Of a stretch of DNA of 64,000 bases, positions 47,551 through 52,627 are shown one piece after another; position 1 is the stretch's first letter; each line of letters opens with the position of its first letter. Source of the DNA: Actinomycetospora succinea (lineage in GTDB: Bacteria; Actinomycetota; Actinomycetes; Mycobacteriales; Pseudonocardiaceae). The position numbers and the translations under genes were made by a program. The notes beneath the pieces are model-generated. The model was not told the origin of the DNA and did not search any database. It was given only the letters and a program-made list of their open reading frames with translations. The stretch covers positions 1 to 64,000 of the forward strand of contig NZ_SNYO01000015.1 of NCBI RefSeq assembly GCF_004363095.1, in the 5' to 3' direction.

Positions 47551-49560
47551 GTGAGCATCGACGACCGCGCGGCCGGCACCCCGGTGCCGCTCGCGGTGCT
47601 CGATGCGCTCGAGCTCTCCGGGCTGGACGGGGTCGAGGTCATCGATCACGCGCGGGCGTGTTTCCGGGCCCGTAATCAGGCCACCGCCCGGTTCCTGACC
47701 GCGTTGCACGAGGCCGGCCGCGCGGTGGACGGGCAGAAAGGCCGCCCCGCGCTGCTCGATGAGTTCTCCGGCGACGAGGCCGCCGCCGCGCTGGGCTGGT
47801 CGCGGGCGATGGCCTCCCGCTGGCTCGATCTCGCCGATGACCTGCTGCGCCGCCTGCCCGAGGTGCACGCCGCGATGCGCGGCGGCGAGCTCGACGACAC
47901 CAAGGCCCGGGTGATCTCCGACTGGACCCGCGACCTGGCCGACGACCACGCCCACCACGTGTGCGCGGTGGTCCTGCCCGAGGCGCCGGCGTTGCCGGTG
48001 GCGGCGTTGATCGAGCGGATTCAGCAGGTCGCGACCGCGCTCGACCCGCAGTGGGCCGAGCGCCGGGAGCGCACCGCCGAGAAACAAGCGCGGGTGCTCT
48101 CGTCGCGGAACCCGTCGGGCACGGCGAACGTGTGCGGCTATGACCTGCCGATGGAGCGCACCGCGGTCGGGATGGCGCGCCTGGAGGCGCTCGCGGCGGC
48201 GCTGCGCCGCCGCGGGGTGCCGGTGAAGATCGGCACGCTGCGGGCGCACGTCTATATGGCGTTGTTCGACGGCACCGCGGTCGGGCTCGACGACGACGCC
48301 CTGCTCGACCTGCTCGCCACCGAACTCGGACCAGACGACACCGACGACAACGGGCCGAGCGACGACGGACCCGACGACGACGGACCCGACGACGACGGAC
48401 CCGACGACGACGGACCCGAGGACGGCCCGAGCGACGGCCCGGACGATGACGAGCCCGGCGATGACGGGTCCCGCAACGACTCCGGTCCCGATGCCGTGCC
48501 GCCTCCCGAGAAGCTAGACGGCGGCGACGACCCGAGCGGTCGCGACACGGGACTCGAGCCCGCGGGCCGTTCCGGGGTGCGGGACGGGACCGTCGAGGTG
48601 CGGGTACGACTAACGACTGCGCTCGGGCTCGACGACCTCCCCGCCCAGCTACCGGGCTGGGGCACCGTCATCGCGCCCACCGCCCGCAATCTGCTCGAGC
48701 GCTACCGCCACGGCGAATGGCGCGTCGTGCTCACCGACCCCGACGGCCGCCTCGAACACCTCCTGCTCGCCCGCCGCCGACCCCTCGCCGGGCCCGACAC
48801 GCGCCCACCCGGGATCGGGCGACCACCCGTCCCCCGCCGCCACCAGCGGCGGGGGCGGACAGGACCAGCCATCGTCGAACTCCAGGTCCCGACGACGCTG
48901 CTCGCCGCCCTCCACCCGAACGACCACCCCGGATGGGCGTCGCTGCTGCGCGAACTCCAGGCCCGCCTACCCGGACTCGCCGCGACCCCCCGCGGCCCCG
49001 ACGACCACGTCCACCCCGCCGACGCACGGCACCGCCGTCCCAGCGCCGAGATCGACCGCTGGGTCCGCGCCCGCGACGGCACCTGCATCGCCCCCGCCTG
49101 CGGACGCCCCGCCCACAGCACCGACCTCGACCACACCCTCGACCACGGGCGCGGCGGCCCGTCGCTGAGCCGCAACCTCGGCGCCCTGTGCCGCCACCAC
49201 CACCGCGCCAAACACGACGCCGGCTGGCGGATCACCCAACCCGAACCCGGCCGCTTCCACATCACCACCCGCGCCGGCGCCCGCTACGACACCCGACCCC
49301 GCCGCATCCTCGAACCCCTCCCCACACCCCGACCCGCCGCCACGCCACGGCCCCTCCCCGCCCACGAACAACACCACGACGACCCCGACACCGACCCCGC
49401 CGAGCACGACGACCTCGTGCGCAGCCTCGAGCCACGCCGCCCGCGCGCCCGCCGAGCCGAGAGCCCCGCGCCCCGTACCGACGCCCAACGCGCCAGCCTC
49501 CGCCGCCGCCGGGACGAGCCGCTGACCCCCACGCCCGACCCCGACCCGCCCCCGTTCTGA
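47551..49560 (+). CDS. DUF222-HNH (13E12-type) protein
   Basis: Encodes 669 residues from a GTG start. The N-terminal DUF222 region (about 15-250, 'GWSRAMASRWLDLADDLLRR') is followed by an acidic low-complexity linker with DDGPD repeats, a second DUF222 part, and an HNH domain at about 505-560. The HNH motif is intact: 'RDGTCIAPACGRPAHSTDLD', 'HTLDHGRGG', 'NLGALCRHHHRAKHD'. This is the 13E12 family, multicopy in many actinobacteria, thought to be nuclease-related; its true role is unknown. The C-terminal 90 residues are Arg/Pro/Asp-rich. It ends ten bases from the convergent sigma-fusion gene. Confidence 0.88.
   Translation: MSIDDRAAGTPVPLAVLDALELSGLDGVEVIDHARACFRARNQATARFLTALHEAGRAVDGQKGRPALLDEFSGDEAAAALGWSRAMASRWLDLADDLLRRLPEVHAAMRGGELDDTKARVISDWTRDLADDHAHHVCAVVLPEAPALPVAALIERIQQVATALDPQWAERRERTAEKQARVLSSRNPSGTANVCGYDLPMERTAVGMARLEALAAALRRRGVPVKIGTLRAHVYMALFDGTAVGLDDDALLDLLATELGPDDTDDNGPSDDGPDDDGPDDDGPDDDGPEDGPSDGPDDDEPGDDGSRNDSGPDAVPPPEKLDGGDDPSGRDTGLEPAGRSGVRDGTVEVRVRLTTALGLDDLPAQLPGWGTVIAPTARNLLERYRHGEWRVVLTDPDGRLEHLLLARRRPLAGPDTRPPGIGRPPVPRRHQRRGRTGPAIVELQVPTTLLAALHPNDHPGWASLLRELQARLPGLAATPRGPDDHVHPADARHRRPSAEIDRWVRARDGTCIAPACGRPAHSTDLDHTLDHGRGGPSLSRNLGALCRHHHRAKHDAGWRITQPEPGRFHITTRAGARYDTRPRRILEPLPTPRPAATPRPLPAHEQHHDDPDTDPAEHDDLVRSLEPRRPRARRAESPAPRTDAQRASLRRRRDEPLTPTPDPDPPPF
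48361..48420 (+). repeat. 15-bp tandem repeat, four copies
   Basis: Four head-to-tail copies of GACGACGGACCCGAC (the last ends in G) start at 48361, 48376, 48391 and 48406. In frame they encode DDGPD. The copies are almost identical, so copy number is likely to vary between strains through slippage. They form the linker of the DUF222-HNH protein. Confidence 0.9.
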
Positions 49561-49570
49561 CGGCCAGGCC

Positions 49571-51508
49571 TCAGCCCCGAGGCCGGAGCCGGCTCAGCGT
49601 CGACTCGCTGGCCTGCTTGAACAGGTACTCGGCGCGCTCGTAGGACAGGCGCGAGCGGCCGGTGTCGGGGCAGCGGTCGGCCGCCGCCGGGACGCGTGCG
49701 GGACCGGGACGGCGGTCGGCGAGGAACACCGGTCCGCGGGACCGGCCCGCGAGCAGCTCCTCCAGCAGCCGCGCCGTGCGCGACCGCCACACCACCGCCC
49801 GGTCGTGGGTGCTGCGGTCGTCGCGGTCGAGGTCGGTGACGTCGAGGGCCAGCACCGCCCGCACCGGCGCCCCCGACTCGTGCAGCAGCGACCACAAGGC
49901 GCGCTCGCGGACCGGACGGGCCGGGTCGTCGCACAGCGCCGCCACGCGGTCCGGCGAAACCGAGGCCGACGACACAGCCGTCGACGCGCGGCGCCCCAGC
50001 TCCCCCGCGAGCTCCGGCCGTTCCACGAACGCCGCGAACGACCGGGCGGCGGCGCGGTGGCGGTTCCAGGTGGCCGGGGCTGCGCTGCCCCACGAGGTCG
50101 TGAGCACCCGGGCGACGTCGGCGCCGGTGAGCGCGGCGAGCGGGGTCGTGCCGCCGAGCCCGCGGACCAGGCGCCGCAGGGTCTGGCCGTACGCCCGGCG
50201 GGCGGGGGCGTCGAGGCCGTCGAGGAACCGCGCGCCGACCTCCTCGAGCGTGGGTCCCGCAGGCGCCGCGACCAGGTCCGCCGCCCGCGCGTCGAGGAAC
50301 GCGCGCTCGGCGTCGTTGCGGGTCAGCGCGGCCGCGCGGGCGTACTCCCGGCGCGCCTCCTCGTCGCGACCGAGCCGGGCGAGCAGGTCGGCGCGCACCC
50401 CGGGCAGCAGGTGGTAGTCGCGCAGCCGGGGGTCGTCGCGCAGCGCCTCGACCAGCGCGAGGCCCTCGGCGGGACCGCGGGCACGCGCCACCGCGACGGC
50501 CCGGTTCAGCGCGACGACGGGCGTGGGCAGCAGCGCGGCGAGGCGGTCGTAGAGCGCGGCGATCGCGGCCCAGTCGGTGTCCTCGGGGCGGCGCGCCTGC
50601 GCGTGGCAGACGGCGATGGCCGCCTGGAGGACGTACGGGCCGGCGCCTCCCCCCAGGTCCCGTGCTCGCAGCATCGCGGTGAACCCGCGGCGCACGTGGA
50701 CCGGGTCCCAGCGCCCGCGGTCCTGCTCGTGCAGCGGGATCGGCTCGCCCGTCGGTCCGGTCCGCGCCGCCGCGCGCGAGGCCTGCAGCTCCATCAGCGC
50801 GAGCAGCCCGTGCACCTCGGGCTCGGACGGGGCGAGGGCAGCCAGCCGGTGACCGAGCCGCAGGGCCTGGCCGCACAGGTCCGTGCGCAGCAGGGCCTGC
50901 CCGGACGTGGCCGCGTAGCCCTCGTTGAAGACGAGGTAGACCACCTCGAGCACCGACGACAGGCGCGCCGCGAGCTCGTCACGCCCGGGCATCGCGAACT
51001 CGGCGCCCTCGTCGGCGAGGGTCCGCTTGGCGTCGGCGATCCGGCGGGCGATCGTGGCCTCGTCGACGAGGAACGCCCGCGCGATCTCGTCGGCGGACAG
51101 GCCGCCGAGCAGGCGCAGGGTCAGCGCGAGGCGTCCCTCGGTGCGCAGCACCGGGTGACACGACAGGAACATCAGCCGCAGGACGTCGGCGTCCTCGTCC
51201 TCGTCAGCGGCGACGTCCTCGGTGTCCACGGCCGCCAGCGCCGTGTGCGCCCGCTCCGCCCGTTCCACGCGACGGAGGTGGTCGACGGCCCGCCGCTTGG
51301 CGACGGAGGTCAGCCAGGCGCCGGGGTTGTCGGGGACCCCGGCGTCCGGCCACTGCTCGAGGGCCGAGACCAGCGCGTCCTGCGCGAGCTCCTCGGCCAG
51401 GCCCACGTCGTGGACCATCCGCGTGAGGGCGGCGACGATCCGGGCGGACTCGAGCTTCCAGACCGCGTCCACCCGGGCGCGCACGCCGCCCCCACGCGGG
51501 GAGGTCAC
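49571..51508 (-). CDS. ECF sigma factor fused to truncated recombinase
   Basis: Encodes 645 residues from GTG 51508. Residues 1-415 are a complete ECF sigma factor of the DUF6596 type: region 2 at about 16-80 ('MVHDVGLAEELAQDALVSAL'), region 4 at about 125-168 ('LGGLSADEIARAFLVDEATI'), then the C-terminal helical domain ('YLVFNEGYAATSG'). Such proteins normally end near 'ERAFLDARAADL' (about 411). Here the frame continues through a recombinase SAM-like domain (about 418-510) and part of a catalytic domain ('LLHESGAPVRAVLALDVTDL'). It stops soon after 'LSYERAEYLFKQASES', where the H-x-x-R box and nucleophilic Tyr should come. The recombinase is therefore incomplete. GTGA overlap with the YciI gene. 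Confidence 0.85.
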   Translation of the reverse strand: MTSPRGGGVRARVDAVWKLESARIVAALTRMVHDVGLAEELAQDALVSALEQWPDAGVPDNPGAWLTSVAKRRAVDHLRRVERAERAHTALAAVDTEDVAADEDEDADVLRLMFLSCHPVLRTEGRLALTLRLLGGLSADEIARAFLVDEATIARRIADAKRTLADEGAEFAMPGRDELAARLSSVLEVVYLVFNEGYAATSGQALLRTDLCGQALRLGHRLAALAPSEPEVHGLLALMELQASRAAARTGPTGEPIPLHEQDRGRWDPVHVRRGFTAMLRARDLGGGAGPYVLQAAIAVCHAQARRPEDTDWAAIAALYDRLAALLPTPVVALNRAVAVARARGPAEGLALVEALRDDPRLRDYHLLPGVRADLLARLGRDEEARREYARAAALTRNDAERAFLDARAADLVAAPAGPTLEEVGARFLDGLDAPARRAYGQTLRRLVRGLGGTTPLAALTGADVARVLTTSWGSAAPATWNRHRAAARSFAAFVERPELAGELGRRASTAVSSASVSPDRVAALCDDPARPVRERALWSLLHESGAPVRAVLALDVTDLDRDDRSTHDRAVVWRSRTARLLEELLAGRSRGPVFLADRRPGPARVPAAADRCPDTGRSRLSYERAEYLFKQASESTLSRLRPRG

Positions 51509-51828
51509 GGGCCCATCACCCGGTGCAGGATGCTGTCGCCGTCACCGACGATCTTCCGGAAGCGCCGCGAGACCTCTAGCGCCTCCTCGTGGGAGGACAC
51601 CTCGACGAGCGCGAAGCCCAGGATCTCCTCCTTGGCCTCGACGAAGGGCCCGTCCGTCACGGTGATCTCGTCACCGTGCGAGGTCATCTTCACGCCGCCG
51701 GGCTCCAGGCCCCCGGTGGCGATGAGGATCCCGGCGGCGGTCATCTCCTCGATGAACGCGCCCATCTCGGCGAACAGGGCCTCGTCGGCCGCGCGGCTGT
51801 TCTGCCCGGTGGTCATCAGGTAGCGCAT
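51505..51828 (-). CDS. YciI/DGPF-domain protein
   Basis: A 107-residue YCII-related protein. 'MRYLMTTGQN' opens it, 'VTDGPFVEAKEEILGFALVE' holds the DGPF signature, and 'HEEALEVSRRF' follows. This family sits next to DUF6596-type ECF sigma factors in many actinobacteria and is thought to act with them, although the mechanism is unknown. Start ATG 51828 with GAGGAGAT upstream. It is translationally coupled to the sigma fusion by a four-base overlap. It is divergent from the DUF998 gene. Confidence 0.9.
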   Translation of the reverse strand: MRYLMTTGQNSRAADEALFAEMGAFIEEMTAAGILIATGGLEPGGVKMTSHGDEITVTDGPFVEAKEEILGFALVEVSSHEEALEVSRRFRKIVGDGDSILHRVMGP

Positions 51829-51976
51829 CTCGATCTCCTCGATCTCCGTGGTGCGGGTGCTTCCGGCTCCACGTCGATCGGCGCGATGCGACAGGGAACG
51901 GTGCGCGTTCCCTGTCATATCAGCTCGGACGACGTCCCGGCGAGAGTTCGACCACCCCGCCGAGGAGGCACCCGAG

Positions 51977-52627
51977 ATGAGCACGATCACCGCCCCCGCC
52001 CCGACCACCAGGAACGCCTGCACCCAACTCGGCGTCCTCGCGACCGGCCTCGTCGGCTGGTGCGTCGTCTCGGTCGCCCAGGCCGCCACCCGCGAGGGGT
52101 TCGACATCCTGGTCCACCCGCTGAGCCTGCTGTCCACCGGCGACCTCGGCTGGCTGCAGATCGCGAACTTCGTCGTCGCCGGCCTGCTCACCGTCGTCGG
52201 CGCCGGCGGCCTGCGCCGGGCCCTGCGCGGCACGCCGGGCGGCACCTGGGCACCCCGCCTCGTGGCGGCCGCGGGCGTCGGGCTCGTCGCCGCCGGCGCC
52301 ATGGTCATGGACCCGGGCGCGAACTTCCCCGTCGGCGCCCCGGCCGACCTGCCGCTGGTCACCTGGCACGCGTACGGCCACATGGTGGCCGGGACAATCA
52401 CCTTCGCGTCGCTGATCGCCGCCTGCTTCGTCCTCGGCCGCCACTTCACCCGCGGCGGGCGCCGCGACCTCGCCGTGACGTCGCGGAGCGCTGGCCTGGC
52501 ACTCGTCGTCGGCTGGGGCTGGGCGATGACCGGCGGCGTGGCCGGGACGCTCACCCTCGCGATCGGCGCCATCGCCGCGATGGTCTGGATCGCCGCCGTG
52601 GCGCTGCGGCTCCGCCGCACCGTCTGA
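51977..52627 (+). CDS. DUF998 membrane protein
   Basis: A 216-residue protein with six predicted membrane helices from the ATG at 51977, which has GAGGAGG upstream. The segments 'GFDILVHPLSLLSTGDLGWL' and 'FVVAGLLTVVGAGGLRRAL' and the later 'TWHAYGHMVAGTITF' with its His residues are typical of DUF998. Function unknown. The divergent YciI-sigma pair may regulate it, as membrane proteins beside ECF genes often are targets; that is inference. A strong terminator hairpin follows. Confidence 0.85.
   Translation: MSTITAPAPTTRNACTQLGVLATGLVGWCVVSVAQAATREGFDILVHPLSLLSTGDLGWLQIANFVVAGLLTVVGAGGLRRALRGTPGGTWAPRLVAAAGVGLVAAGAMVMDPGANFPVGAPADLPLVTWHAYGHMVAGTITFASLIAACFVLGRHFTRGGRRDLAVTSRSAGLALVVGWGWAMTGGVAGTLTLAIGAIAAMVWIAAVALRLRRTV

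Follow-up and report, generated by a model that had tools for sequence, protein, structure and literature searches.

The 64,000-nucleotide stretch of Actinomycetospora succinea DNA considered here (contig NZ_SNYO01000015.1, positions 1 to 64,000; called the window below) contains a gene for a 645-residue protein which, judged by sequence comparison, is an extracytoplasmic function (ECF) sigma factor, most probably of the ECF42 type, fused to a partial tyrosine recombinase. Sigma factors are thought to read promoters through their domains sigma2 and sigma4, and the comparative evidence presented below points to a second, recombinase-derived promoter reader on the -35 side. With a probability of about 0.8, the recombinase domain has been domesticated in such a way that DNA reading was kept, catalysis was dropped and recognition of the upstream part of the promoter was taken over, the fusion being an autoregulator. 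The odds lean slightly towards the further claim that reading of the -35 element was handed from sigma4 to the domesticated recombinase, still holding its old crossover half-site, with a mobile-element target turned into a core promoter element and sigma4 released from its base contacts. If this hand-over is true, nature may already offer a programmable sigma factor in the form of such a recombinase-sigma fusion. The case appears to be a bacterial recombinase domestication in which one can still see the enzyme, the site it targeted, intermediate stages and an intact sister, so that the path from mobile enzyme to transcription factor can be followed back. In the four best plasmid matches the annotation of the gene reads sigma factor and nothing else (matches H5 and H6 have no listed gene), so that the recombinase domain is easily overlooked.

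The fused gene and its distribution

The protein is encoded by a single uninterrupted frame on the minus strand (49571-51508) without internal stop, and the view of the original prediction, made from the letters of the window, that a sigma factor and a recombinase share one frame of 645 residues is borne out by the open reading frame, by Pfam and by the fused loci described below. Pfam places Sigma70_r2 at residues 23-83, Sigma70_r4_2 at 113-164 and DUF6596 at 182-282 (E 1.6e-35), followed by Phage_int_SAM_1 at 437-496 (E 5e-4, 20.8 bits, below the gathering score of 22.3). Structural matches to TPR proteins, which fill the VIA structure list, cover approximately residues 184-417 in the VIA alignment. 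Of the traits of ECF42, sigma2 and sigma4 with no sigma3 family and DUF6596/TPR are present in what Pfam lists, and the YCII gene lies upstream. In its operon the fusion follows YCII as gene 2, the stop of YCII and the GTG start of the fusion overlapping by 4 bases (GTGA, 51505-51508), and a DUF998 gene diverges from the same intergenic region. This arrangement is general: Sigma70_r2, Sigma70_r4_2 and DUF6596 were found in 67/67 aligned fusions and Phage_int_SAM_1, at E <= 0.01, in 65/67, while a YCII homolog lies upstream in 80/80 named loci and a divergent DUF998 homolog in 56/80.

In total, 97 distinct fused loci (duplicates removed, L094 included) were collected, all from Actinomycetes. 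The same fusion with a conserved junction, which the original prediction had proposed to look for in related genomes, occurs at full length, with nearly the same end and no internal stops, in 10 of the 18 genus genomes, Actinomycetospora lutea being a nearest named relative for the window gene. Among 80 relatives, these 18 included, it was also detected in one further family of the order and, within the family, in four further genera, and it was moreover seen in Streptomyces, Amycolatopsis, Actinoplanes, Microtetraspora, Nonomuraea and others. In the named-genome scan, for which 80 of 155 relatives were kept, the sigma match stands in the same frame in 79/80 loci and extends across nearly the whole sigma/TPR model in 77/80; the partial cases are L119 (without the first 78 model positions), L094 (only the model end) and L080 (no in-frame sigma match). 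A class sample gave the fusion in at least 15 of 394 genomes, a lower bound as few candidates were scored and 30 loci were kept, and in a phylum sample (396 genomes, 3 candidates scored per genome) the full fusion was confined to the class. No phage match for the fusion was obtained. One candidate for a second fusion type, the 715-residue frame L165, was rejected as it has no sigma match.

Both trees fit one origin of the fusion. In the sigma/TPR tree, 94 fused and 51 unfused ECF42 proteins are separated by one branch (Shimodaira-Hasegawa-like approximate likelihood ratio test, SH-aLRT, 100, quick method), and in the tree of the recombinase part one branch separates 93 fused from 21 stand-alone sequences (100/99; bootstrap not settled). 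The unfused ECF42 rows end 1-31 residues past the sigma/TPR homology in 51/51 cases, that is, where the recombinase part begins. Seven other genes in the window genome match the sigma part, and their matches stop at residue 456 or before. The unfused paralogs G009:C17 and G008:C52 align as far as residues 626-631 only through 3 and 5 stops, respectively, and in the first of them (locus L019) no recombinase match at E <= 1e-5 was detected. A frameshift, read-through or sequencing error near 50260, the artefact against which the original prediction had warned, is excluded because the fused relatives have no internal stop, and a fusion limited to one strain with random decay of its C-terminal part is contradicted by the 97 loci and by the purifying selection described in the next section. 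The comparison indicates an old, long-lived architecture and not a decayed one.

The recombinase-derived domain

The junction between the sigma and recombinase parts lies at residue ~415 (nucleotide ~50264). The recombinase part terminates with a conserved CPxTGRxRLSYERAEYLFK segment, and the C-terminus of the window protein (..RLSYERAEYLFKQASESTLSRLRPRG) falls directly behind the box-II arginine. The original prediction had described the H-x-x-R and tyrosine end as missing and the box-I arginine as out of register, and both observations hold: Pro stands at the Arg-I position with an Arg two residues later, His-II is replaced by Ser, Arg-II is kept, and no match to the catalytic Lys, box III or Tyr is present. 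The Arg-I register was tied to XerD (1a0p) via an intact relative.

The loss of catalytic residues is a common feature of the fusions. Full catalytic residues are lacking in 96/97, the catalytic tyrosine is missing in 96/97, and in 91/97 the frame stops no more than 22 residues from the second arginine; of the 97, 5 still have Arg-I, 13 His-II, 6 box III and 1 Tyr (the catalytic lysine column was aligned loosely and left out of the counts). Among the 21 stand-alone recombinases, which include fragments, Arg-I and Arg-II are present in all 21, His-II in 20 and Tyr in 16. The full R-K-H-R-H/W-Y set was found in one fusion of the 97, L135 (= L249), from a Sphaerisporangium metagenome-assembled genome, and five other full-length fusions in the catalytic table have Phe or Leu at the Tyr position and Pro at Arg-I; Phe takes the place of Tyr in L247 and L248. 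The family PF00589 is not listed for the window protein and was found in 1/67 fusions, and it is matched by the C-terminal part of L135 and by 3/3 scanned stand-alone recombinases. Because full-length, mostly disarmed fusions sit in a group that branches early in the trees, a complete recombinase was probably captured, later disarmed and later truncated. No leftover of the missing catalytic half was seen by eye in the downstream frames of 15 fused loci.

The remaining part is under purifying selection. The ratio of nonsynonymous to synonymous differences (pN/pS), calculated for two recombinase segments in two groups of five, was 0.47 and 0.27 in the one and 0.42 and 0.37 in the other, which is near the values for sigma2-4 (0.39 and 0.30) and about equal to or above those of the TPR part (0.18-0.27). 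The word "decayed" applied to the recombinase by the original prediction does not suit these ratios (0.27-0.47), nor the common junction and end in the genus. The TWNRH segment of the core-binding domain and the CPxTGRxRLSYERAEYLFK segment are among the best conserved residues of the recombinase part. By comparison with Cre and XerD, base reading presumably belongs to the retained parts and cutting to the lost ones. An AlphaFold2 model built from 67 sequences has a mean predicted local distance difference test score (pLDDT) of 90.5 and a predicted template modelling score (pTM) of 0.72, and 20 of the 24 ten-residue blocks between residues 411 and 645 lie at 90-98. Searched as a whole with Foldseek, it matched lambda Int, XerA and Tn1549 Int (probability 1.00, E 3e-3 to 2e-2) amid TPR proteins, the aligned range not being shown; for the lambda Int complexes the target TM-score (TMt) was 0.47-0.58 with a root-mean-square deviation mostly of 4.5-6 (4.7 at the best TMt). 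A PDB sequence search with the domain profile gave one match, which was unrelated.

Two individual loci deserve mention here. L135 (2660-4864), the sole fusion of the 97 with R-K-H-R-H-Y, might have kept recombinase activity while attached to a sigma factor, and the Streptomyces fusion L121 (2462-4867) has a long Gly-Ser repeat inside its recombinase part, behind the DRRARTG segment.

Half-sites, promoters and stand-alone recombinases

The half-site TTCCCTGTCACAT, with up to 2 mismatches, was found within 300 bp upstream of the YCII start in 81/81 scored fused loci, the expectation from shuffled sequence (first-order Markov, 20 per locus) being 0.2 loci; another 13 of the 94 fused loci, all with at most 333 bp of sequence upstream of the sigma part, were not scored. 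Among 24 other rows the site was detected in two, both broken fusions (L080, L094), which leaves 0/22 unfused loci, and it was absent from 28/28 further unfused ECF42 loci in the 900 bp upstream of the sigma part. With the two broken fusions set aside, the controls together give 0/50 unfused ECF42 genes with the site. This association supports the guess of the original prediction that the recombinase domain would target the sigma factor to DNA.

In 67 of the 81 fused operons the half-site is part of an inverted repeat (up to 3 mismatches per arm) with a centre of 8 bp in 56, 9 bp in 8 and another length in 3. Such geometry, next to the gene, matches the core site of a tyrosine recombinase (inverted arms of 11-13 bp, centre of 6-9 bp). 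The repeat accompanies the divergent DUF998 gene, being present in 53/56 loci with DUF998 vs 13/24 without it (Fisher p 5e-5), so that 11 of the latter 24 lack the repeat. On the genome scale, the pattern TTMCCTGTCRYAT-N7-10-CGAYG gave 13 matches in the 18 genus genomes, all by position at the fusion operon, in 8/10 fusion genomes and in 0/8 fusion-free genomes, and its reversed form gave none in the same 18. The pattern RTTMCCTGTCRYAT gave 34 matches in 19 of 23 fusion genomes (reversed, 0), by position at fusion operons with a single exceptional pair, G315:C64:11111-11143. The RTTMCCTGTCRYAT pair at G584:C295 belongs to the second match of that genome, with a 677-residue open frame that was taken for a second fusion.

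The ordinary promoter of the family is recognizable in unfused operons, TGTCG-N17-19-CGAY being found in 20/22 of them and in 11/28 of the second control, where many of the 28 loci lie outside the nearest unfused clade; the Sinorhizobium (S.) meliloti RpoE10 promoters listed in the accessible part of PMC6180224 resemble it. Early-branching fusions carry half-sites upstream of a separate TGTCGA..CGAYG promoter (5/5, and 10/10 more), which is exact in 3/5 and 4/10; the others were judged by eye to deviate at one position. For the exact ones, 28-41 bp separate the promoter from the end of the nearest upstream half-site. The half-sites are often two direct copies spaced 17-18 or 26-27 bp apart. 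In the main clade, to which the window gene belongs, CGAYG follows the half-site at 7-10 bp in 71/76 loci, on the other strand as well in 65/76, and TGTCG-N17-19-CGAY was detected in 4/76, at spurious-looking places; by this comparison the half-site occupies the -35 place.

A corresponding change is seen in the recognition helix of sigma4. Residue 159, which by its numbering aligns with a -35 contact of Escherichia coli sigmaE, is Arg in 10/10 early-branching, 28/28 unfused and 6/84 main-clade proteins, and in gain of variability in the main clade residues 159 and 152 rank 1 and 2 of 393 sigma/TPR columns. T152, R155 and D159 of the window protein are among the helix positions that lose conservation, and of the six main-clade proteins with Arg159 the three with upstream sequence show no TGTCG promoter match. 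Such a loss is expected if sigma4 stopped reading the -35 element once the half-site took over.

Stand-alone recombinases help to decide to which partner the site belongs. Exact arms ATGTGACAGGGAA-N7-TTCCCTGTCACAT, the G315:C64 pair mentioned above, lie ~0.9 kb upstream of an intact stand-alone recombinase (L293, 8532-9479), near which no sigma match exists within 12 kb and which is sister to the fused clade (SH-aLRT 95; 89 for the fused clade itself). In a further stand-alone group, TGTCACA half-sites precede the gene in 13/14 best loci (L217-L230, the query's own locus included), typically as an inverted repeat with a 6 bp centre and a third half-site immediately before the start codon, and other inverted repeats occur in a like place in 8/16 scanned loci, mostly of other stand-alone groups. 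Judged by the arms at a sigma-free sister, together with the half-sites and repeats at other stand-alone genes, the site thus goes with the recombinase and not with the sigma factor.

Several loci of this kind were recorded in their own right. The region L293:7600-9479 shows, in order, the arms of the fused clade, a small frame, an apparently broken or frame-shifted ParA frame (by eye) and the intact recombinase, and resembles a plasmid-partition cassette. The stand-alone genes L217-L230, L234 and L235, mostly with the repeat and the third half-site before the start, look self-controlled and perhaps of a plasmid-resolution type. Upstream of L219 a different inverted pair (GGATATGCAGGTCAA / TTGACCTGCATATCC) may represent a change of specificity. 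A 269-residue stand-alone recombinase frame, L049:1366-2172, ends almost where the fusions end (..LHQLRRAALMYRTA), and a related frame of 255 residues is present in G059.

Proposed mechanism and its alternatives

It can be proposed that a complete tyrosine recombinase became joined to the C-terminal end of an ECF42 sigma factor once, in Actinomycetes, and that the recombinase then retained what reads bases, namely the core-binding domain and the catalytic domain's first half, and lost what cuts (Arg-I, Lys, His-II, box III and Tyr). The domain would bind the former recombinase half-site, now a promoter element. At a first stage the half-site, often in tandem, would have acted as a tether upstream of an ordinary ECF42 promoter; at the main-clade stage it would have moved to -35, with the TGTCG element lost and base reading by sigma4 ended there. 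One half-site with CGACG 8-9 bp downstream would then make one promoter, and two inverted half-sites a divergent pair serving the YCII-sigma operon and the DUF998 gene. As such a pair would drive the fusion's own operon and the DUF998 gene, the protein would be an autoregulator with a very small regulon, and autoregulation of these two units is probably its cellular function. A regulatory signal may act through the TPR part, by analogy with what is proposed for ECF42 in the accessible part of the review PMC8999054. The sequences themselves show the fusion, trees that agree with one origin, purifying selection, the lost catalysis, the sites with their geometry and association, and the lost conservation in sigma4, whereas physical binding, activation, the -35 hand-over, the order of events and the pairing of protein parts with base contacts are inferred.

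Some points weigh against this domestication of the recombinase as a promoter reader. The evidence for binding is that of sequence comparison, and the whole model found no PDB match at E <= 0.001 in Foldseek. Of the 13/94 fused loci unscored at first, 12 then showed the site, but L045 (G059) has no exact pattern match, and the fusion genomes G008, G012 and G255 have no match to the exact genome patterns. Among stand-alone genes, half-sites occur in only 5/12 other loci (L231-L241, L246; many of them fragments or distant), and L219, a member of the TGTCACA group, lacks the site. In the tree, the site-richest stand-alone group (L217-L235) does not come out as sister to the fusions, and a group with a different repeat (L050, L161, L166) branches between (SH-aLRT 84; deepest split 67; fused clade 89); because the branch order of the stand-alone groups does not fit perfectly, the history of the site may include convergence. 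The ranks of residues 159 and 152 are descriptive, since the compared groups are unequal in size (84 vs 38) and relatedness, and the main-clade site overlaps -35, which may leave some of it to be read by sigma4.

In a simpler explanation, the half-site is just the new -35 element of this sigma clade, read by sigma4, and what is left of the recombinase serves structure or protein interaction and has no DNA role. The main-clade site does sit at the expected -35 place, but an element of 13-15 bp is long for sigma4 alone, and the recognition helix turns variable, not newly conserved, in the very clade that has the new element. In early-branching fusions, moreover, the element, frequently duplicated in direct orientation, precedes a canonical promoter distinct from it, and a repeat with identical arms adjoins the stand-alone sister recombinase, where no sigma match exists. 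The explanation is thus quite improbable, even if ECF C-terminal extensions commonly act via protein or ligand contact, as described in the accessible parts of PMC8999054 and PMC8103513. Binding of the half-site by the domain may, on the other hand, serve autorepression of the promoter, released by a signal sensed via the TPR part. Recombinases bound near their own promoters are generally known to repress, and the main-clade site overlaps the region from -35 to the spacer; nevertheless, with no TGTCG -35 left in place a second factor is needed for transcription in the main clade, and the early-branching sites lie upstream, in an activator-like place, so that this repressor role is unlikely.

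Continued recombination at the inverted repeat (inversion or plasmid-type resolution, timed by the sigma part) would be conceivable for L135, whose catalytic set is complete and whose C-terminal part matches PF00589, but as a general explanation it is very improbable, the tyrosine being missing from all other fusions, the window gene included, and the five other full-length fusions having Phe or Leu in its place and Pro at Arg-I. The possibility raised by the original prediction of a read-through fossil, in which a sigma gene lost its stop codon beside a dying integrated element, agrees with the incompleteness of the catalytic domain; it is hardly tenable when junction and end point are common to many genera, the fusions lie on one side of one branch in both trees, selection is purifying and the 10 fused frames of the genus contain no stops, a conservation that contradicts it.

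The domesticated-recombinase reading can be set beside several known systems. With ECF42 (Sven_0747, ECF-10, RpoE10) the fusion shares sigma2-sigma4, DUF6596/TPR, the upstream YCII gene and a CGACG-like -10, and it differs in the additional recombinase-derived domain, in the recombinase half-site in the promoter and, in the main clade, in the lack of the TGTCG -35. Regulation built into a C-terminal extension is also a feature of ECF41 (SnoaL_2) and ECF238 (metal domain), whose extensions are described in the accessible parts of PMC8999054 and PMC8103513 as ligand- or protein-binding, whereas that of the fusion has the apparent fold of a DNA-binding enzyme with its site in the promoter. XerD, lambda Int and Cre apparently share with it the core-binding and front catalytic fold, and also inverted arms around a short centre; unlike them, the fusion has lost the catalytic residues, the Tyr and the C-terminal part and sits behind a sigma factor. 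The Crypton-derived animal DUF3504 proteins (KCTD1, ZMYM2-4, QRICH1, WOC) are likewise domesticated tyrosine recombinases without catalytic residues, and many DUF3504-bearing proteins are transcriptional regulators, according to the accessible part of PMC3212892. They are, however, of animal and unrelated origin, and DNA binding is there only proposed, with no target site named, whereas the promoter of the fusion keeps the ancestral site. No description of a sigma-recombinase fusion was found in the accessible open-licence literature, and the words "integrase" and "recombinase" do not occur in the accessible main text of the survey of DUF6596 sigma factors (PMC11119718).

Table 1. Coordinates of the fusion gene, its domains, neighbouring genes and promoter elements in the window
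Feature	Position	Strand	Basis and remarks
Sigma-recombinase fusion gene	49571..51508	-	645 residues, GTG start, TGA stop 49571-49573; open reading frame, Pfam
ECF domains sigma2 + sigma4 (residues 1-175)	50984..51508	-	Pfam
DUF6596/TPR extension, the usual ECF42 C-terminal extension (residues 176-415)	50264..50983	-	Pfam, TPR structural matches
Recombinase-derived domain (residues 416-645)	49574..50263	-	Core-binding helices 421-501 (TWNRHR conserved) and front half of catalytic domain
YCII (DGPF-type) gene, operon gene 1	51505..51828	-	Pfam YCII 3.3e-9
Divergent DUF998 gene	51977..52627	+	Pfam DUF998 3.5e-33; start codon chosen by eye; inverted repeat in common with sigma operon
Half-site TTCCCTGTCGCAT, putative promoter of YCII-sigma operon	51886..51898	-	Pattern match
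Inverted second half-site TTCCCTGTCATAT, facing divergent gene	51908..51920	+	9 bp from first half-site
CGACG, -10-like, toward sigma operon	51872..51876	-	Pattern match; 9 bp past half-site
CGACG, -10-like, toward divergent DUF998 gene	51930..51934	+	Pattern match

On the other side of the fusion, a DUF222-HNH gene (window positions 47551-49560) with an acidic DDGPDD repeat converges on the 3' end of the fusion gene.

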